DNA of 64,000 nt from the NCBI GenBank assembly GCA_002068015.1, contig MVRV01000182.1, forward strand, positions 1 to 64,000. Direction: 5' to 3'. The notes under the pieces were generated by a model. That model was not told the DNA's origin. It worked only from the letters and a program-made list of their open reading frames with translations, and did no database searches. The position numbers and the translations under genes are program-made. Source of the DNA: Smithella sp. PtaU1.Bin162. GTDB lineage: Bacteria; Desulfobacterota; Syntrophia; Syntrophales; Smithellaceae. Positions 20,520-57,248 of the stretch are shown here, one piece after another (position 1 is the first letter of the stretch; each line of letters begins with the position of its first letter).

Positions 20520-22433
20520 CTATATTTTTTCTCTTAAAATGCGGTAATCCCCCACCCGAACAGTCAGTTTATCCATATCAAAATATTCCATGAGCGGGAT
20601 TATATATTTGCGGGACAGCCCGGTAAGTTCTTTAAAACTGGCCGGCGTCGCCTTGCCGTCTTTGATCAGTAATGCTTTATAAGAATTTCTCAATTGACCG
20701 AGAATTTCACGGGAAAAACAGAGCTCCTCATTGATTTTGATCAAATCACCGTCTTTCAGCATCAGCTTAACGATACTCTGGGCCTGGGGCCTCTGATCTT
20801 TGAATCCGGCAATAACATCGGTAAGAGCGGGTGGCGTGAGGCCTGCTTTTTGGTAAATTCCGGAAATGGCAAGGCGGATCGAATCAAGACCGCCCGTTAT
20901 CTGAACAGAGTGTCTGATCAGTCGCACATTATCTTTATCGCTGACGATGATTTCTTTTTTGGTGAGGTTGCGCAGGGCCATATTAAATAATTTTACCGAG
21001 ACCGGACGTTGCAGCGATGCCTTGAGCTCTTCTTTGGAAATTCCTTCCTGTAGAGGATTCTTTTCGTGATGAAGAGAGAGGTTACTAGTGATCAGCTCTT
21101 CGAGTTGATTGTAATAACGCTCGGAGATTGCAGTGGTGTCTTCACTGTCGAGAAGAAATGCCTTTCTCAGGGAAAATAAATTTTCCAGTGCTTCTTTAAT
21201 TTTTCCGGCGGTCACACCGAGTCGGTAGGCGATACCGCTCAGATTGATGCCGGAAAATCCGGATCTTTCCAAAATGACGGATATTTTATCCGGCAGTGAT
21301 CCGTTCATCAATTGGTTCAGATCGCCCATGATTTCTTCATTCCGTCTTTTATGTTTCACCGGCTGTGGATCGATAATCCGGCCGCCGCCGATAGTCGTAA
21401 CCGGCGAATAACTGCGCAGCACAAAATGTTCTCCACCGACAGTTACGGTTTTGCTGACAAGCGTCAGCTGGGCAAAAGCCTTCTCTCCCGGGGCAATTTC
21501 ATCTTTGTCGAGCAGAATCAGTCGGGCCATGACTTCACTGGTACCAGTGTGCAGACGCACCAGATCCCTGTTCTTCAGTTTTTTGAGATTAGCCGGCAGA
21601 TATTCGGCAAAAACATCCAGCCGTTGCGAAGGCCGGACTGTTTGCGGCCGCACCAGGACGTCACCGCGGGTGATATTTGATTTTTCCATGCCCTGGAGAT
21701 TGATTGCCGTGCGCTGTCCCATCCAGGCTTCTTCCACCGGATGATTGTGTACCTGGATTCCGCGAATGCGGGAAACCAAACCCTCCGGAAGAATTTGAAC
21801 TTCTTCTCCGACTTGAATACTTCCGGAAACGAGCGTTCCGGTAACAACTGTTCCGAAGCCTTTCATTGTGAAAATACGATCGACAGGTAGACGAAAGATA
21901 CCGTCATCCATTTTGGGGATAAGGTGTTCCACAACAGTATTTATTGCGGCCGTAAGATCGGAGAGTCCGTCACGTTTCACGGCGGATACCGGAATAACCG
22001 GCGCTCCTTCCAGAAAAGTTCCCTGAAAAAACTCGGTTATCTCCCCCTTAACCAGATCAAGCCAATCCTCATCCACCAGATCAGTTTTTGTCAAGGCGAC
22101 AAGGCCGGAAGATATACCCAGAAGTGAACAAATATGCAGGTGCTCTTTTGTCTGAGGCATGATGCCTTCATCGGCGGCGATGATCATCATCACCAGATCA
22201 ATCCCTGCCGCGCCGGAAACCATGGTTTTGATGAATTTTTCATGACCCGGCACGTCAACGATGCCGATCGTCCGGCCGGAAGGAAGGAGAAGCGAGGCAA
22301 ATCCCAATTCGATGGTAATGCCTCTTTCTTTTTCTTCTTTCAAACGATCGGTATCAATACCGGTAAGTGCTTTAATTAATGCTGTTTTTCCATGGTCGAC
22401 GTGTCCGGCTGTGCCGAGAACAAAATGTTTCAT
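20520..22433 (-). CDS. selB: Selenocysteine-specific elongation factor SelB
   Basis: GTPase that brings Sec-tRNA to UGA codons marked by a SECIS hairpin. The 637-residue protein begins with the G-domain (GHVDHGKT at 9-16, [19 protein letters not shown]), followed by EF-Tu-like beta-barrel domains and a long C-terminal part with winged-helix repeats (about 370-637) that bind SECIS RNA in studied SelB proteins. The length and the C-terminal extension separate it from EF-Tu. selA, selD and tRNA-Sec are not in the window. Its presence supports Sec decoding at 52832 and 55482. Confidence 0.95.
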
Positions 22434-49190: not shown

Positions 49191-50375
49191 TTATTGCAAC
49201 AAAACGACTTTTTTATCCAGCAAAGAGGCCTTGCCCAGAGTAATTTTAAAATATTCCAGCATCAATTCTTCAATGATTTGTTCTTTGGGAGTGCCGGCAT
49301 AGGAGGCTTGTTTTTTCGTCTCACTTGTTTTGATTTTCCCGTTTTGAACAGCGAGAGATTGCCGCGCCTGCTGCAGGGCGGCATATTTTCCCAGTAAGTC
49401 ATTCTGGGGCAGGGCTGAAAGTTGTTGATAGTTGGCGACTATCTGTCTGGCCGCAGGCAATTTCGGCGATTCCAGGATTGTTTTTAAATTCGTCGCATTT
49501 CGTTTCATTCCCTTGATTATATGTCCCGTTTGGACAAAATTTATTCCCGACCAGCCGGCCCGGATCCATTGAAAAATCCCGGATCTGACCACGCATGGAG
49601 CAGTGCCGGATTCTACATGAACTCCCACTGAAAAATAGTCATAGATATAAGATTTAATCCAACCCAGCCCTGTCTTGGCCGAGCCGGTTTCGCCGGAGTA
49701 GTAGTAAGTCCAGTCGTCATCGTTTCCTATGATTATACCCTTTTTACCGACATCGGATACGTTAATCTGTTTCGAAATGGAGAGAAGCACCTGCCTTCCC
49801 TTGTGATTGAGAAGGATGTAGGCTTTTTTCAAATCATATTCATAATAGACGCCGGTGGTGAGATCCGGAGTAATCCCGTCGCGTTGTGATCCGCGGATGA
49901 TGACAGGTTTTCCGGAAGGCAGGATCGGTTTCCAGCTGACCGGCAATCTTTGCGATTCCCCACCGGGGATACCGTTCCACAAAGAATACCGAAGTGATGC
50001 CGGGCTGGTGAGAGAAGCCGGAATCTGGTCGCTGTAAGAGTATTGCAGGAAATTTGTGAAATTAATTCTGGTTTCGGATTCATAATAAGCTCCGGGGGCA
50101 TCCTGAAGATTGGGAAGCTCAAATTCTTTTGCGGACTTCTGCTCGAGAACATAGTCTACGACAGTAGCGACAGCCTGGTCATCAAGCCTCGCTTTGGGAT
50201 CGGCGCAGAATTGAACAAGTGTCATTGCCGCAGCGGGGATGGGGCTTGCAGTGTCCAAAGGCGGGGCGCCCGCCGCAGAGATCTGTGGCGGGAACAGTAT
50301 CAGCAGTGCAATAATCAGTGTTGTCAACAGCCGGCGTAATCCGGGGGCGGAGTTTCTTATCTTTTTTTTCATCAT
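49191..50375 (-). CDS. Secreted protein of unknown function
   Basis: I do not recognise this 394-residue protein. It has an N-terminal signal peptide (basic start, hydrophobic LLTTLIIALLILFPP, cleavage likely after SAA near residue 35), so it should be periplasmic or surface-bound. The middle (about 80-290) is rich in Tyr, Gly and Ser with beta-type patterns (GVYYEYDLKKAYILLNHKG, WTYYYSGETGSAKTGLGWI). The C-terminal 100 residues are helical and Lys/Gln-rich. One Cys near 57 and one near 269 could pair. Precedes the MtfA-like gene on the same strand. Confidence 0.65.
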   Translation of the reverse strand: MMKKKIRNSAPGLRRLLTTLIIALLILFPPQISAAGAPPLDTASPIPAAAMTLVQFCADPKARLDDQAVATVVDYVLEQKSAKEFELPNLQDAPGAYYESETRINFTNFLQYSYSDQIPASLTSPASLRYSLWNGIPGGESQRLPVSWKPILPSGKPVIIRGSQRDGITPDLTTGVYYEYDLKKAYILLNHKGRQVLLSISKQINVSDVGKKGIIIGNDDDWTYYYSGETGSAKTGLGWIKSYIYDYFSVGVHVESGTAPCVVRSGIFQWIRAGWSGINFVQTGHIIKGMKRNATNLKTILESPKLPAARQIVANYQQLSALPQNDLLGKYAALQQARQSLAVQNGKIKTSETKKQASYAGTPKEQIIEELMLEYFKITLGKASLLDKKVVLLQ

Positions 50376-50752
50376 TCGCTTTGTTTATGCCGGGTAATCC
50401 GGTAGAGTATTTTTATTTACAATGTCAGGCATTGGACTTGCCGGTCGTGCCTTCGGTATTGCAATTATCTATCCGTTGCCATTGGTTATTTGCTAAAGAA
50501 CTTCATGACGCGACATATAGTTTGTTGCATATCACAAATATGAAATAAATATCAGCACAATTATTGTTAAAATTTATGTGCCCAAGCAATTCAATGACTT
50601 ATTCTGGTCTGCGCAGACAATGTTTATGATGAAGTCTGAATTTCCATCTTGAATTTTTGAATACAGTAGCGTCAAAATATCTTGCGGCAGGCTTATAGTT
50701 ATGCTACCAGTGCGCCACTTTAAACAGCTATTTTACAAGGGATTCGCCATAT
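50376..50752. other. Divergent intergenic region without recognised features
   Basis: This 377-base AT-rich gap separates the secreted protein gene from the ABC-F gene. I see no convincing gene, RNA or repeat. It must hold two divergent promoters, but no clear -35/-10 pair stands out. Confidence 0.5.
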
Positions 50753-52387
50753 ATGATTCATTTCAGCGGCATTACCAAACAATATGGCCCGCAGGTCCTG
50801 TTTCGGGATGCCGGTTTTCAGATACTGCCCGGCAGCCGCAGCGGCCTTGTCGGACCAAACGGTGCGGGCAAAACAAGCATTTTTCGTCTGATTATGGGCG
50901 AGGAGGAGTTTGATGCCGGAGAAATCACGAAAGCGCGCGGTGTCGTCTGCGGCTATTTTTCCCAGGATGTCGGCGCCATGTCCGGCCGTTCGGCACTTCA
51001 GGAGGTTATGTCCGCATCCGAATCCGTAACCCGGTTGGGCCTGCAGATTCGCGAGATGGAAGCGGCCATGAGCGAGCCGCAGACGGAAGATGAAATGGCG
51101 GTTCTTCTGGAGAACTACGGCAATATTCAGTCCGAATTCGAGCACCGCGGCGGTTACGATCTGGAAAGCCGTGCACAAATTATTCTGACCGGCCTCGGCA
51201 TCGGCCCCGCCGATTACAACCACCCTGTGGAGACGTTCAGCGGCGGCTGGAAGATGCGCATAGCGCTGGCCAAAATACTTTCGATCAATCCTGATGTGCT
51301 CTTACTCGATGAACCCACAAACCACCTTGATGTGGAATCGATTATCTGGCTCGAGGAATGGCTCACCGGCTCATTTCAAGGTGCACTTCTCATGACCAGC
51401 CACGACCGCGAATTCATGAACCGCGTGGTGAACCGCATTGTTGAGGTGGCCAACCGCACGATTACCACTTACAGCGGCAATTATGACTTCTATCTGCATG
51501 AACGGGAAATACGGCGGGAACAACTTTTGGCGAGTTATCGCCGTCAGCAGGAAATGCTTGCCAAGGAAGAAGATTTCATTGCGCGCTTTGCCGCAAGGGC
51601 GTCTCATGCCTCGCAGGTGCAGTCACGCGTTAAAAAGATCGATAAAATTGAACGCATTGAAATACCCGCCGAACAGCGGACATTCCGGTTTGAGTTTGCC
51701 GAGCCGCCGCGCAGCGGCGATGATGTCGTTAAAATCGATAATTTAGGCAAGGTCTGGCCTCGTCCCGAAGGTGGCGTAAAATCAGTATTCGGCGGAGTTA
51801 CCGGCATTATCCGGCGTACGGAAAAGATCGCCGTAGTCGGTATCAACGGAGCCGGCAAGTCCACATTTCTAAAGGTGCTGGCCGGGGAGGCGGAGCCTTC
51901 GGCAGGCGCCCTGAGTATGGGCGTGAACGTTTATCCCGGTTATTTCAGCCAGCATGCTATGGATATTTTAGATCCGCAGAAGACCGTAATCGACACTCTG
52001 CAGGATGCCATGCCGCAGGCGCATTTGGGCACTCTGCGCAATTTGTGCGCCGCCTTTTTGTTTCAGGGTGATGATATTTATAAAAAGATCGATAAATTAT
52101 CCGGCGGCGAAAAAAGCCGCGTGGTTCTGGCGACGATGCTGGTAAAGCCCATCAATCTCTTGATCCTTGACGAACCGACGAACCATCTCGATATTCAGTC
52201 CCGCGAGACGCTTCTTACCGCGCTGCAAAACTTTACCGGCACGGTAGTGCTCGTGAGCCATGACCGCCACTTCCTACGCTCGCTCATCAACCGCGTCTTC
52301 GAAATCGATCACGGTGAGATGCGAATTTACAACGGCAGTTACGAATACTATCTCGAAAAATCCGGCCGGGAGCATCGTGCGGCCTGA
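50753..52387 (+). CDS. ABC-F family ATPase
   Basis: A 544-residue soluble twin-ABC protein. Walker A: GPNGAGKTSI near 34 and GINGAGKSTF near 364; signatures FSGGWKMRIALAK and LSGGEKSRVVLAT; Walker B followed by DEPTNHLD in both halves. The inter-domain linker (about 245-300) has the REQLLASYRRQQEMLAKEEDFIARF pattern (read in parts). No C-terminal coiled coil, unlike Uup, so it is a different ABC-F subfamily, likely of the translation-factor kind. Confidence 0.87.
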   Translation: MIHFSGITKQYGPQVLFRDAGFQILPGSRSGLVGPNGAGKTSIFRLIMGEEEFDAGEITKARGVVCGYFSQDVGAMSGRSALQEVMSASESVTRLGLQIREMEAAMSEPQTEDEMAVLLENYGNIQSEFEHRGGYDLESRAQIILTGLGIGPADYNHPVETFSGGWKMRIALAKILSINPDVLLLDEPTNHLDVESIIWLEEWLTGSFQGALLMTSHDREFMNRVVNRIVEVANRTITTYSGNYDFYLHEREIRREQLLASYRRQQEMLAKEEDFIARFAARASHASQVQSRVKKIDKIERIEIPAEQRTFRFEFAEPPRSGDDVVKIDNLGKVWPRPEGGVKSVFGGVTGIIRRTEKIAVVGINGAGKSTFLKVLAGEAEPSAGALSMGVNVYPGYFSQHAMDILDPQKTVIDTLQDAMPQAHLGTLRNLCAAFLFQGDDIYKKIDKLSGGEKSRVVLATMLVKPINLLILDEPTNHLDIQSRETLLTALQNFTGTVVLVSHDRHFLRSLINRVFEIDHGEMRIYNGSYEYYLEKSGREHRAA

Positions 52388-52798
52388 TGCAGCAATGACT
52401 TTCTTTTTTCATCCTCATCATCAGTCATTTCCCCCGCAGAGACAGTGAGCAATGCTTTCGAGTGAGGACCTCTGCCGGGAGACTTTGTCGTAATGGTTAA
52501 ATGTACATGTTTATCCCCGGAATGACATTGCGACACAGTCTAGGAATCTGGAATCCAGCCCGTCCATTGTCATTGCCCGGCTAGACCGGGTAATCCGGTT
52601 TCTGTAATTCTTCCAGCCCTTGAGGTGAAAGATTAAGAAGATTGTTTTTCCCTTCAGCCCTCGGTCATCAGCCTTTAGTCCAATTAAAAAAACCATTGAA
52701 ATAAAGAAAGTTGCAGTATATTGAAAAAACTTCCTGGCCATATTCTCCATGAGCTTGCTGCGGGGAGGTTCATTATTCTTCAACATGAGGATAAAATT
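52388..52798. other. Intergenic stretch with degenerate repeats
   Basis: The 411 bases hold no convincing gene. A palindromic repeat lies at 52568-52602 (CCCGG-ctaga-CCGGG core). Around 52510-52550 there are further pieces resembling the same repeat family (GGAATGACATTG, GGAATCCAG). A ribosome site (TGAGG, 52786-52790) belongs to the next gene. Confidence 0.5.
52568..52602. repeat. Short palindromic repeat, GTCATT-type, copy 1
   Basis: GTCATTGCCCGG, loop, CCGGGTAATCCGG. It shares its ends with copies at 54965 and 55869, all within the selenoprotein island. Confidence 0.6.
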
Positions 52799-53392
52799 AT
52801 GATCAACTTCAAAATATTTTCCGATTATATCTGACCTTTTTGTTATATCGGCAAGGGCATTGTCGAACGGTTGAAAAAGGAATACGCGATTGTTGAAAGC
52901 TGGGTAGGCTACGAGTTGCATCCGGAAACGCCTTCTTCCGGGGTGCTGCTTGCCGAAAGATTTCAACATTATGACCTGCCGGTTCTCCATGAGCAGATAC
53001 GATTACGCGGCCTGGAGTTCAGCCTTATTTTCGGCAACCGGACTCATCTTTATAATTCCCGGAAATCGCTTGCGGCCGCTGAATTTGCCCGGGATCTTGG
53101 AAAATTTGATTCTTTTCATGAGAATATGTTTCAGGCTTATTTTACTCATTGCCTCGATATTGACAATCCTGATGTAATTGCCGCCGTAGCTGTGAAAAGC
53201 GGTCTTGATGAAAAGGAAACACTTTGTGCCGTCCAAGATGGACGGTATATGCCGCGACTGGATGATGCCCGGAAGGAAGCCGAATCACTGAAATTAACCA
53301 GCATTCCTCTTTTCATCATCAATGATAAATATAAAGTCATCGGAGCGCAGCCGATGGAAATCTTCCGTGATCTGCTGGATAATATTGAATGA
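52799..53392 (+). CDS. DsbA/FrnE-like selenoprotein (Sec at codon 12)
   Basis: Thiol-disulphide oxidoreductase-like protein, 197 residues if the in-frame TGA at 52832-52834 is read as selenocysteine. The N-terminus then reads FKIFSDYI-U-PFCYIGKG, exactly where DsbA/FrnE proteins have CPxC, so U12 and C15 would form the redox centre. The rest fits the family: HPETPSSGV, an inserted helical region (LAAAEFARDLGKFDSFHENMFQAYF), and the cis-Pro segment LTSIPLFIINDKYKVIGAQP. TGAGG stands before the ATG. A SECIS-like hairpin follows the TGA. The stop overlaps the start of the ModF-like gene (ATGA). Without recoding, no start upstream of the active site exists in frame. SelB is encoded in this window. 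Confidence 0.85.
52849..52865 (+). promoter_or_regulatory. SECIS-like hairpin of the DsbA/FrnE-like gene
   Basis: Six-bp stem CGGCAA (52849-52854) / TTGTCG (52860-52865) with one G-T pair, loop GGGCA. The loop begins 21 bases after the UGA and starts with GG, as in bacterial SECIS elements such as that of E. coli fdhF. Confidence 0.65.
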
Positions 53393-54864
53393 AAAACAAC
53401 CTTCTTTTTGAACTGCGAAATGTAACTTATGAAATTGATGAACACCGGAGATTTGCCCATATCGACTGGCAGGCGGCTTCCGGCGAAACCTGGGCTGTCT
53501 ATGGTGCAGCCGGTTCCGGCAAATCATCTCTCTGTTCCATTTTTCAAAGTCTCCGTCTTGTAAAAGAAGGTGAACTGAAACTCCATTTTTTGGAAGGCAA
53601 GCCGGATGATTCCGTATATCGGGAAGTCGTTGAGGTCTCCTTCACCTCGACTCCCGTCCACTGGGGCGGAAGTTACTACCAGCAGCGTTATACGCCGAGC
53701 CAGATTGTCGATGTTCCGACAGTCGCCGAATACCTGAATATCGATCCATCCAATAGCGCCATCGCCGATGAATTGCTCGAGACCTTTCATCTTGCTGAAT
53801 TTAAAAATTCCGCCTGTATCAAACTATCCAACGGGCAGATGCGCAAATTATTAATCGTGGAAGCACTGATGCAAAAGCCGTCTCTTCTGATCCTCGACAA
53901 TCCTTTTACGGGCCTCGATATGGAAGGCAGAAAAGTATTGGACGAAAAGCTCACGCTGCTTGCGGCGCGCGGGCAGCTGATCATCTTCCTCATCAACCAT
54001 TTACGGGATCTGCCCACCTGTGTAACCCATGTGCTGGAACTGGAAAAATTTCAGGTAAAAAGAGCCGGGCCCAAAGATGAACTGCCGGAAGAAAAATCAA
54101 CTTCGGAATTATCAGCCGCTACTGACACTTATCCTAAATTGTTGCATCCAATACCCCGTTCTTATGAGTTTGCGGTCGCCCTCCGTAACGTAACGATTGA
54201 ATATGAGGGAAAGCGAGTCCTGGACAACATCAGCTGGACTGTCCGCAAAGGTGAGAAATGGGCACTTACCGGCGGCAACGGTTCAGGAAAATCCACACTG
54301 CTCAGTTTGATTACGGCGGACAACACTCAGGCCTACGAAAAAGAAATCTATCTTTTTGATCGGCGGAGAGGATCAGGCGAAACCATCTGGGATATTAAGG
54401 AACAAATCGGGTTCTTGTCGCCGGAGCTTCATTTGTATTTTACCAAAGCCCTGACCTGCACCCAGGTGGTTACATCAGGATTGAACGATACGATGCTCGC
54501 TAAAGCTCATTTGAGTGACAAAGAAAAACAATCCATGCAATCGTTCTTTACCTATTTTTCTCTTAATGATCTTTCCCGGCGCTACTTTCAGCGGATTTCC
54601 AAAACCGAACAGCGCATTGTCCTCCTAATCCGGGCGCTCATCAAAAATGCGGAAATGCTGATACTTGACGAGCCATACCATTATTTCGATGAGCAATTGA
54701 TCCGGCGCACCAACCGGCTTCTGGACTGGTATTGCCGCGATAAAACGCTGATCTTTGTTACTCATCACCCGGAAGAAATACCGGCCTCAGTCAATCAGAG
54801 AATGCACATGAATGCCGGAGTCGGCAAAATTATTTCCATATGTTATTCTGAGGAACCTGGGTGA
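53389..54864 (+). CDS. modF: ModF-like twin ABC ATPase
   Basis: A 491-residue protein with two ABC domains, close in length to E. coli ModF. Walker A: GAAGSGKSSL near 44 and GGNGSGKSTL near 298. The segment LFDRRRGSGETIWDIKEQIGFLSPELHL (read in parts, near 322-350) closely resembles ModF. Signature 1 is LSNGQMRKLLI; the second is degenerate (ISKTEQRIVLLIR), though Walker B ILDEPYHYFD remains. ModF is linked to the molybdate operon, but its role is unclear. It is translationally coupled to the selenoprotein upstream. Its last codons fall in a palindromic repeat, so the native C-terminus may be altered. Confidence 0.78.
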   Translation: MKNNLLFELRNVTYEIDEHRRFAHIDWQAASGETWAVYGAAGSGKSSLCSIFQSLRLVKEGELKLHFLEGKPDDSVYREVVEVSFTSTPVHWGGSYYQQRYTPSQIVDVPTVAEYLNIDPSNSAIADELLETFHLAEFKNSACIKLSNGQMRKLLIVEALMQKPSLLILDNPFTGLDMEGRKVLDEKLTLLAARGQLIIFLINHLRDLPTCVTHVLELEKFQVKRAGPKDELPEEKSTSELSAATDTYPKLLHPIPRSYEFAVALRNVTIEYEGKRVLDNISWTVRKGEKWALTGGNGSGKSTLLSLITADNTQAYEKEIYLFDRRRGSGETIWDIKEQIGFLSPELHLYFTKALTCTQVVTSGLNDTMLAKAHLSDKEKQSMQSFFTYFSLNDLSRRYFQRISKTEQRIVLLIRALIKNAEMLILDEPYHYFDEQLIRRTNRLLDWYCRDKTLIFVTHHPEEIPASVNQRMHMNAGVGKIISICYSEEPG

Positions 54865-54954
54865 CGAAGAATCTCTCGTTGTTAAACAAGGGGTTGCAAC
54901 CCCCTGTTTTGTTATTAGATTCTTCACCCCGCTGCTGCGGGATTCAGAATGACA
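54841..54954. repeat. Palindromic repeat covering the modF stop codon
   Basis: Nested inverted repeat: TGTTATTCTGA (54841-54851) against TCAGAATGACA (54944-54954), and GAAGAATCT (54866-54874) against AGATTCTTC (54917-54925), with a GGGGTTGCAACCCC hairpin in the centre. The first arm supplies the last codons and TGA of the modF-like gene. Confidence 0.65.
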
Positions 54955-54964
54955 ACCTCCCTCC

Positions 54965-54994
54965 GTCATTCCCCAGCTTGACTGGGGAATCCAG
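54965..54994. repeat. Short palindromic repeat, GTCATT-type, copy 2
   Basis: GTCATTCCCCAG, loop CTTGA, CTGGGGAATCCAG. Near-perfect stem. Confidence 0.7.
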
Positions 54995-55287
54995 TTATCT
55001 TTTTCTTTCCGGTATTGAGGGGGCAACTAGCGGGACGCCCTTAAAATTGTAAATTACTAGAAGGTTCGTTAGTTGAGGAAACAGTAATAGAGGCGCTCTT
55101 AACTTATTACCTCAATCCTGCACGTCATAGTTTAAAAATTAAATAATCCATCTGGGGAACTGTTGTATAAAGGATATGCGAATAAACCAAAAACAACAGG
55201 AGATACCCAGATGGTAAAAAAGCGAAATAAGGATAGCAGGAAAAAGCTAGTCAGTAGACACTTTAATCAGGGCGTTGAAAGAGCCAG

Positions 55288-55310
55288 GGGGAACGCTGGG
55301 GGGCGTCCCC
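55288..55310. repeat. REP-like hairpin
   Basis: GGGG-A-ACGC and GCGT-CCCC arms (one bulged A) around a G-rich loop, 43 bases before the selenoprotein Prx start. Similar hairpins flank REP-associated transposases in related bacteria (recollection only). Confidence 0.4.
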
Positions 55311-55352
55311 GACCTTTTCTTGTCAAAATAGAAAATCAAGAAGGCAATCAAT

Positions 55353-55820
55353 ATGTCCAGAATCGAACTCGATGTCCCGGCGCCGGATTTTACGCTGACC
55401 GATTTTGAAGACAAGAGCGTATCTCTTTCCCAGTTTGCCGGTAGAAAAAATGTCCTGGTGGTTTTTAACCGCGGTTTTTTCTGACCATTCTGCCGCGCGC
55501 ACATGGCGCAGTTGCGCCGGGATTATGAGCAGTTTGTCAAGCTGGATACGGAAATCATAGTTGCCGGACCGGAGAAGGCCGAAGCTTTCCGGGACTACTG
55601 GGCAAAAGAAGATTTACCCTTCATCGGTTTGCCCGATCCGGAGCACCGGATTCTGAAATTGTATGGTCAGGAAGTCAAATTGTTTAAGCTGGGAAGACTT
55701 CCCGCGCAAGTTCTGATTGATAAATCCGGAAAGGTAAGGTTTGTTCACTACGGTCATTCCATGTCGGATATTCCGCCGAATAATGAAATTATTAATTTGA
55801 TTGAAACGCAATTATCGTGA
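55353..55820 (+). CDS. Peroxiredoxin-like selenoprotein (Sec at codon 44)
   Basis: Redoxin-fold protein, 155 residues if the in-frame TGA at 55482-55484 is read as selenocysteine. The N-terminus APDFTLTDFEDKSVSLSQF is the AhpC/TSA start; then VLVVFNRGFF-U-PFCRAHMAQL, where relatives have CPFC; then the rest of the fold (FIGLPDPEHRILKLYG, PAQVLIDKSGKVRFVHYG). U44 and C47 would be the active pair, probably reducing peroxides. AAGAAGG (55337-55343) is the likely ribosome site for the ATG at 55353. The same frame is open on both sides of the TGA over the full family length, which argues against a chance stop. A SECIS-like hairpin follows. Confidence 0.87.
55505..55518 (+). promoter_or_regulatory. 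SECIS-like hairpin of the Prx-like gene
   Basis: GGCGC (55505-55509) / GCGCC (55514-55518) around loop AGTT; the loop begins 26 bases after the UGA, with G as its second base. Stem length and distance suit a bacterial SECIS, although the loop is small. Confidence 0.5.
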
Positions 55821-55868
55821 GGAATATCGAGGCCGTCAATAGTCATGGTTTTATGCCATCAAGAATTT

Positions 55869-55898
55869 CTGGATTCCCCGATCAAGTCGGAGAATGAC
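55869..55898. repeat. Short palindromic repeat, GTCATT-type, copy 3 (reverse)
   Basis: CTGGATTCCCCG, loop, CGGAGAATGAC: the same element as copies 1 and 2 in opposite orientation, between the Prx-like and glyoxalase genes. Confidence 0.65.
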
Positions 55899-55928
55899 AA
55901 CAGGGAACATAAGTAAGGAGGCAAGGAT

Positions 55929-56300
55929 ATGCAATTTACTTTCGCCCATAATAATTTCAATGTGCTTGATCTGGAGAAAAGTCTGGCCTTCTATAAGGAA
56001 GCTCTGAATCTTACGGAAATGCGGCGCTATGAGCCGCCGGATAAAAGTTTCATCCTTGTCTATCTTGGTGACGGCAAAATGCCGCATCAGTTGGAACTCA
56101 CCTGGCTGAAAGACAGAAAAGAGCATTACAATCTGGGTGACAACGAATTTCACTTGGCTTTCAAAGTGGATGATTTTGCCGCCGCTCATGCCCGGCATGA
56201 AAAAATGGGTTGCATCTGCTTTGAAAACAAAGCGATGGGAATCTACTTTATCCATGATCCGGACGATTACTGGATCGAGATCATCCCGCAGAAGAGATAA
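55929..56300 (+). CDS. gloA: VOC-family protein, glyoxalase I-like
   Basis: A 123-residue single-domain vicinal oxygen chelate protein. It begins with FAHNNFNVLDLEKSLAFYKEALNL (first metal His near residue 7), has HQLELTW with a metal-ligand Glu near 57, EFHLAFKVDDF, and ends with FIHDPDDYWIEIIPQ with the second Glu. All four usual metal ligands look present, so it may act on methylglyoxal-type adducts. AAGGAGG (55916-55922) is a strong ribosome site. The lactoylglutathione lyase call is by motif only, and other VOC functions are possible. Confidence 0.8.
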   Translation: MQFTFAHNNFNVLDLEKSLAFYKEALNLTEMRRYEPPDKSFILVYLGDGKMPHQLELTWLKDRKEHYNLGDNEFHLAFKVDDFAAAHARHEKMGCICFENKAMGIYFIHDPDDYWIEIIPQKR

Positions 56301-56316
56301 CCGGTGAAATAAAAGT

Positions 56317-56463
56317 ATGGTCGATTTTAGAATATTTTCCGATTATGGCTGAATCTTCTGTCATATCGGCAACCCGGATGGGATTGCCTCCGTTGTCGGT
56401 AAAAGCGGCCTTGATAAAAAGAAAACGAGGGAAGCCGTTATGGGTAGCCGACTATTTGATTAG
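56317..56463 (+). pseudogene. Internally deleted copy of the Sec-DsbA/FrnE-like gene
   Basis: From an ATG at 56317 the frame reads VDFRIFSDYG-U-IFCHIG with TGA at codon 12 (56350-56352), then jumps to NPDGIASVVGKSGLDKKKTREAV, which aligns with NPDVIAAVAVKSGLDEKETLCAV in the intact gene at 52799. About 104 codons are missing, in frame, and a TAG at 56461-56463 ends it. A hairpin with arms GGCAACCC and GGG-A-TTGCC (56368-56388) follows the UGA. The missing middle and lost C-terminus make it almost surely non-functional. Its end overlaps the stop of the facing permease gene. Confidence 0.75.
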
Positions 56464-57248
56464 TTTACCATTCTTTTACGCAGTCTTCTTACCGCGAAGA
56501 ATCCGATAATAACGATGAACACGACCATATAAAATAAGTCCCACAGGTGAATCATTTGGTAATGGTTCACACAGACGGCTCGTACAATGCGCACGGAATG
56601 GGTCAGCGGTAAAATTTCGACCAGTGGTTGAATATAATCGGGCAGATTGCTTATGGGAAATACTACTCCCGAAAAAAAGAACATCGGTGATATGAAACCG
56701 GTAAAATAGAAATTGAGCTGATTGATCGTCCGCACAAATGAAGTTATCAATAACGAGAGCGCTGCAAACATCATACCGGTCAGAAATCCAACCAGCGGAG
56801 CAAGCAGGCTGTAGGGAAGATGGATCACACCAAAGGAAGTCAGGATGCAAAGAACGGCAAAAGAGAAAAATAATCCTTTTGTTCCCGCCCAGATGATCTC
56901 ACCGACAATCAGGTCATTGGCAGTCAGTGGTGCCGCCAGCATCCCGTCATACACCTTATCGAATTGCAGCCGGATTAATGTGCCGTAGCTGCATTCGAAC
57001 GCTGCTGTGAACATCGCCGCTGTTACTAATAATCCGGTTCCCAGAAATTCTAAATAACCAAGCCCCTCCATTGATTGTGTTATGTAGGTGCCCAAACCGA
57101 GTCCGATACCCGCCAGAAATAAAAGGGGTTCCAAAAATGGCGGCAATCCGTTGCTGAAGATGTTTTTCGTATAAACCCGTGTGTGCCGGTACCATACGCT
57201 GAACAGACGCCAGTATAGAGGAGGAGCTATCATATCATTGGGTTTCAT
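56460..57248 (-). CDS. ABC-2 exporter permease, NodJ-like
   Basis: A 262-residue membrane protein with about six helices; motifs of the NodJ/ABC-2 group include FLEPLLFLAGIGLGLGTYI, FECSYGTLIRLQFDKVYDGMLAAPLT (in parts), FYFTGFISPMFFFSGVVFPI and LPLTHSVRIVRA. The start overlaps the end of the ATPase gene by 14 bases. The pair exports an unknown molecule; NodIJ exports lipo-oligosaccharides in rhizobia, but relatives are widespread. Confidence 0.87.
   Translation of the reverse strand: MKPNDMIAPPLYWRLFSVWYRHTRVYTKNIFSNGLPPFLEPLLFLAGIGLGLGTYITQSMEGLGYLEFLGTGLLVTAAMFTAAFECSYGTLIRLQFDKVYDGMLAAPLTANDLIVGEIIWAGTKGLFFSFAVLCILTSFGVIHLPYSLLAPLVGFLTGMMFAALSLLITSFVRTINQLNFYFTGFISPMFFFSGVVFPISNLPDYIQPLVEILPLTHSVRIVRAVCVNHYQMIHLWDLFYMVVFIVIIGFFAVRRLRKRMVN

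Follow-up and report, generated by a model that had tools for sequence, protein, structure and literature searches.

Selenocysteine-containing FrnE-type oxidoreductase genes in Smithella and related bacteria: conservation, SECIS covariation and gene neighborhood

Selenocysteine (Sec)-containing DsbA-like proteins were first reported in 2005, when a member of COG2761/PF01323 with a UxxC motif was described from the Sargasso Sea (PMC1088965). A listing of 2006 again included DsbA-like selenoproteins, among them one from Desulfotomaculum reducens (PMC1794560), and such proteins were also encountered in ocean surveys (PMC2398784) and tabulated in reviews of 2022 and 2026 (PMC9312934, PMC13188914), in line with the mention of published surveys in the original prediction for the present locus. 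The group designated "DsbA-like protein form 1" (PMC13188914) possesses the same domain as the protein discussed here, with Sec as the first residue of the CxxC motif and a downstream hairpin carrying a G in its loop. The type is therefore already known in bacteria, and the gene described in this article adds a member to it; compared with the published proteins, it belongs to another lineage, in which every gene-bearing family member carries the Sec form, but it does not differ in kind.

Among proteins containing Cys, FrnE of Deinococcus radiodurans (PDB 5cnw, 5co3, 5cp1, 5xwh) shares both fold and sequence with the protein under study, with 23-24% identity by structure alignment, although it has Cys where the latter has Sec and is longer, with a 260-residue chain. 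A mechanistic model is offered by NCgl2478 of C. glutamicum, a DsbA-family protein with a CPFC motif that acts as a mycothiol-dependent disulfide reductase and shows no oxidase activity (PMC8280269). This enzyme is a Cys protein with CPFC in place of UPFC and takes electrons from mycothiol, and it is likened to the present protein by description rather than by sequence alignment. Additionally, a peroxiredoxin (Prx)-like protein with a UxxC motif constitutes another selenoprotein family that is already known.

The locus was examined in a stretch of 64,000 nucleotides from Smithella sp. PtaU1.Bin162 (contig MVRV01000182.1), hereafter the window. A gene for a Sec-containing DsbA/FrnE-type thiol oxidoreductase of 197 aa, with the active site U12-P-F-C15 and referred to below as dsbA, occupies 52799..53392 on the plus strand. 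As had been proposed, the frame is open on either side of an in-frame TGA, running from the ATG at 52799 through this TGA at codon 12 (52832..52834, plus strand; read as Sec12) to the terminal TGA at 53390-53392 with no other break, and the translation begins MINFKIFSDYI-U-PFCYIGKGIV. The DSBA domain PF01323 spans residues 5-193, that is, the whole chain (Pfam, E 4.8e-24), and the cis-Pro segment expected in the C-terminal half is present, with P170 invariant across a 23-row alignment. Mechanical ORF calling yields only a 173-aa ORF starting from TTG 52871, which lacks the active site, demonstrating how Sec FrnE genes become truncated in such procedures. Comparison of the gene with its relatives gives a dN/dS of about 0.11-0.20, the majority of the codons lying 3' of the TGA, and by this measure the gene is under purifying selection. 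In the tree, the branch leading to the window copy has a length of 0.45, versus about 0.05-0.2 in the closest relatives; the raised dN and dS of this copy do not by themselves imply relaxed constraint.

The identity of the residue at codon 12 was assessed in 79 genomes of the same family and order, including the window genome, and in a phylum set of 395 genomes. In the former, dsbA occurs in 26 genomes (the window genome counted), each match contains exactly one internal TGA, and this TGA is codon 12 at all 27 loci of the 26 genomes, embedded in the conserved motif DY(I/V)U(P/S)(F/W)CY, with the codons 5' of it also conserved. The phylum set contains dsbA in 83 of 395 genomes, the best match in 67 of the 83 having one internal TGA, a count for which the codon position was verified in the fetched loci only. 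Across all fetched loci, the site is occupied by Sec at 52 and by Cys at 82, with no other residue observed, corresponding to 51 distinct Sec genes with TGA at the codon-12 site as against 82 Cys genes. A public contig, JAAYDW010000032.1, from a deltaproteobacterial metagenome-assembled genome that is itself a member of the relatives set (G011), also carries the TGA, as does a contig of the Bacillota isolate Alicyclobacillus mengziensis. Cys is found at the site in distant homologues from Gaiellales, Brevibacillus, Bathyarchaeota, Lokiarchaeota, Gammaproteobacteria, Binatota, and others, so that the TGA stands where these homologues have their first active-site Cys, as the original prediction had claimed. 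The tree requires eight changes between Sec and Cys, two of which are forced by well-supported branches, in line with the repeated Sec/Cys exchange described in the literature (PMC1794560). As far as gene sequences can establish a residue, this comparison provides decisive evidence that the TGA encodes selenocysteine. The set adds well-supported Sec FrnE genes with a covarying SECIS element and indicates that the Sec form is the rule in this bacterial family.

Two individual homologues deserve mention. The Alicyclobacillus mengziensis gene (L018, 6001-6579) encodes Sec, carries the SECIS described below, and shares a region of the tree with the Cys form of Brevibacillus; transfer is a possible origin for it. 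In the homologue of genome G008 (L110), about 37 additional residues are inserted in frame close to the C-terminus, where they separate the IENKY and KIVGAQP segments; the insert is perhaps derived from a short repeated element.

A hairpin whose loop begins with GG had been predicted 21 bases after the UGA, and the structure is present as described. The apical hairpin of the candidate SECIS (52848..52866, plus strand), delineated by folding and covariation, comprises arms at 52848-52854 and 52860-52866 (UCGGCAA and UUGUCGA, 7 bp) enclosing the loop GGGCA at 52855-52859, which starts 21 nt 3' of the UGA and holds the conserved G at 52856. The entire predicted SECIS region extends over 52835..52880 on the plus strand and includes a lower stem (52835-52841/52874-52880) for which the evidence is folding only. 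The minimum free energy of the window hairpin is -13 kcal/mol, with a z-score of -2.3 relative to dinucleotide shuffles, 3 of 200 of which fold equally well. At the fixed offset, 43 of the 51 distinct Sec genes have every pair of the 7-bp stem and the remaining 8 retain 6 of 7 (mean 6.84), versus a mean of 3.44 of 7 pairs at the same offset in the Cys genes, a control drawn mostly from other lineages. Compensatory changes among the Sec genes affect the pairs +16/+30 (G-C/A-U/U-A), +18/+28 (C-G/U-A), and +20/+26 (A-U/C-G); close relatives have the arms UCGGCAA/UUGUCGA, distant ones UCAGUAC/GUAUUGA or UCUGUAC/GUAUAGA, and the second loop base (+22) is G in 51 of 51 Sec genes. Shuffling of synonymous codons lowers the mean number of pairs from 6.84 to 5.06 in the Sec genes but not in the Cys genes (3.44 real, 3.77 shuffled), indicating more pairing in the stem than the encoded protein would impose. 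For the window sequence by itself, 14% of synonymous shuffles reach 7 of 7 pairs, a weak test, and the case for the SECIS therefore rests on the comparison across the family. No SECIS family of Rfam was matched, either at the gathering score or, for the local region, at a relaxed E-value.

The genome encodes the complete machinery for Sec incorporation. The Sec-specific elongation factor gene selB lies in the window itself (20529..22421, minus strand; TIGR00475, 356 bits, above cutoff), and elsewhere in the assembly tRNA-Sec (selC) is found on contig C49 (72.7 bits), selA on contig C29 (606 bits), and selD on contig C139 (374 bits), the last with one in-frame TGA of its own. A genome without selA, selD, and tRNA-Sec would have been incompatible with the selenoprotein reading, and all of these genes were found together with selB. 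Additionally, 15 of the window's 53 long open frames terminate in TGA, which shows that the code has not been globally reassigned. Taken with the conservation of codon 12 and the covariation of the stem, the machinery strongly supports the selenoprotein interpretation of a DsbA/FrnE-like protein with a UPFC motif and a bacterial SECIS.

Two alternatives to this interpretation concern the TGA itself. The codon could be a true stop, leaving a pseudogene or a product restarted downstream at TTG 52871, a view to which the 173-aa ORF from mechanical calling gives some encouragement; however, the restarted product would have lost its first strand and first helix together with the UPFC motif of the active site, and a stop would be difficult to reconcile with the conserved codons ahead of the TGA, the retention of the TGA in every family and order homologue found, the dN/dS of about 0.11-0.20, and the covarying SECIS stem. 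The chance that this explanation is correct is very slight, and the conserved in-frame TGA refutes it in practice. Alternatively, the TGA could be a sequencing error or a codon reassigned to another residue in this organism. The assembly is indeed a draft of 191 contigs, but separate assemblies from many species show the identical TGA, so it is not an error of sequencing, and the 15 of 53 long open frames ending in TGA as well as the complete Sec machinery contradict reassignment. Error and reassignment are accordingly rejected, with a likelihood that is smaller still and close to nil.

The structure predicted for the protein is consistent with the FrnE branch. The AlphaFold2 model has a pLDDT of 96, its top structural matches in the PDB are D. 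radiodurans FrnE (TM 0.89-0.91) followed by S. coelicolor SCO1869, and the best PDB sequence match is likewise FrnE (E 2.5e-14). Traits of this branch include the UPFC motif, which is of the CPFC/CPWC type, and the cis-Pro P170. Judged by eye, the protein has no signal peptide, and strand 1 starts at residue 2 of the model; a chain that begins directly with strand 1 and carries no export signal is probably cytosolic. Two further Cys residues, near positions 117 and 144, are missing from most relatives, suggesting that Sec12 and Cys15 form the working pair.

On the basis of the conserved RNA structure and the complete machinery, SelB bound to the hairpin just 3' of the UGA would deliver Sec-tRNA to codon 12. 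By analogy to Cys homologues, the selenolate of Sec12, located where the first helix begins, may then attack a substrate disulfide or mixed disulfide, Cys15 would resolve the intermediate to give a Sec12-Cys15 selenenylsulfide, and a cellular thiol or the thioredoxin system could reduce the Se-S bond. The most likely role, again by analogy, is that of a reductase or repair enzyme in the oxidative-stress response of an anaerobe, not that of a periplasmic oxidase, a preference based on the presumed cytosolic location and on NCgl2478 being a CPFC reductase without oxidase activity. Overall, the locus is explained best, and with high confidence, as encoding a cytosolic FrnE-type Sec oxidoreductase into which Sec is inserted by means of SelB and the hairpin, with the adjacent ATPase gene probably a chance neighbor.

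That neighbor (53389..54864, plus strand) encodes a two-domain cytosolic ABC ATPase of 491 aa with a ModF-like layout, matching PF00005 twice. Like ModF of E. coli (NF008186), it has two ABC domains in a single chain of about 490 aa, but its NF008186 score of 293.1 bits falls below the curated cutoff of 459 bits, and its assignment to the molybdate family, as originally proposed, is not supported at that threshold. The predicted ATGA overlap of stop and start is real (ATG 53389-53391, TGA 53390-53392). Such overlaps are frequent between adjacent bacterial genes. Homologues of the ATPase at E <= 1e-40 occur in 9 of the 79 genomes of the relatives set, the window genome counted, with 34-40% identity outside it, and in genomes G011 and G052 a homologue coexists with dsbA on different contigs. 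Adjacency of the two genes is confined to the window genome, which is 1 of 26 dsbA-bearing genomes in the order set, 1 of 83 such genomes across the 395 of the phylum set, and the single case among 39 compared neighborhoods, so a conserved pairing with modF in related genomes was not borne out.

Downstream of these genes lies a second UPFC selenoprotein gene, peroxiredoxin-like (55353..55820, plus strand; PF00578, E 8e-23), with Sec44 at 55482-55484, the motif FNRGFFUPFC, and a hairpin 3' of its UGA; nearly all family homologues keep the TGA. It follows dsbA on the same strand at a distance of 0.7-3.5 kb in seven genomes, namely the window genome and all six dsbA-carrying genomes of genus g2. 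Both genes are present in 16 genomes of the family and are not adjacent in 9 of them. The slot between the two genes is variable: in the window it holds the ABC ATPase, at L170 an Mrr-type nuclease, at L172 a C5-methyltransferase/Vsr/HNH set, at L173 proteins without a clear family, at L176 a TPR protein, and at L178 a LarA-like protein, while at L182 it is empty of genes. Several of the genes carried in the slot among relatives are restriction/modification or nuclease genes. The slot region of the window contains a palindrome (54884-54909) and a 19-nt inverted repeat (55148-55214), but a pattern and repeat search detected no pair of repeats flanking the slot, which thus provides no mechanism for its variability. 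Window positions 50000-56500 had no match among plasmid records, and apart from the Prx-like gene, no neighbor cluster accompanied dsbA at more than 6 of 39 loci.

These neighborhoods bear on which gene, if any, works together with dsbA. The selenoprotein and the ModF-like ATPase could be a functional pair, for instance with the oxidoreductase maintaining thiols that an ATPase of molybdate metabolism would need; both genes are intact, and the shared strand and ATGA overlap make co-translation probable in this genome. Against this stand the adjacency in only 1 of 26 and 1 of 83 dsbA-bearing genomes, the score below the ModF cutoff, and the position of the ATPase in a slot filled by unrelated genes in five relatives and by none at L182, and the pairing is improbable. 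The simplest reading is that the variable slot happens to hold an ATPase here whose start overlaps the dsbA stop, the ATPase probably being a chance neighbor. A literature search on ModF yielded nothing useful, and the proposal that this coupling might be novel is unsupported, with the ATPase under the cutoff and the adjacency in one genome. The coupling is dropped as a lead in favor of a testable replacement, the recurrent neighborhood of two UPFC selenoproteins. As a functional partner of dsbA, the Prx-like selenoprotein, with both proteins acting in one redox relay or stress response, is a tentative candidate that we consider rather unlikely, even though it shares the UPFC motif and lies 0.7-3.5 kb downstream on the same strand in the window and in all six dsbA-carrying genomes of genus g2. 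The nine other genomes with both genes, two genus mates among them, place them on separate contigs or at a distance of 26 kb; with the cutoffs applied, the Prx-like gene occurs in the absence of dsbA in 22 relatives; and the intervening genes are unrelated, so the arrangement is not a simple operon. A broader proposal, in which the FrnE-type and Prx-like UPFC selenoproteins work as a redox pair and the intergenic slot serves as a hotspot for the integration of defense-like or other cargo, is slightly more doubtful. In a shallow literature search, no publication describing dsbA paired with the Prx-like selenoprotein was found.

Two further small genes were observed near dsbA. At L172, L173, L176, and L178, representing four genomes of genus g2, there is a gene for a small protein that resembles members of the C-GCAxxG-C-C redox family (assigned by eye); it lies 0.8-2.2 kb upstream of dsbA and runs on the other strand. 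In the window, positions 55929-56300 encode a small glyoxalase/VOC-like protein, also assigned by eye, which also lies no more than 5 kb downstream of dsbA at L173, L185, L187, and L188.
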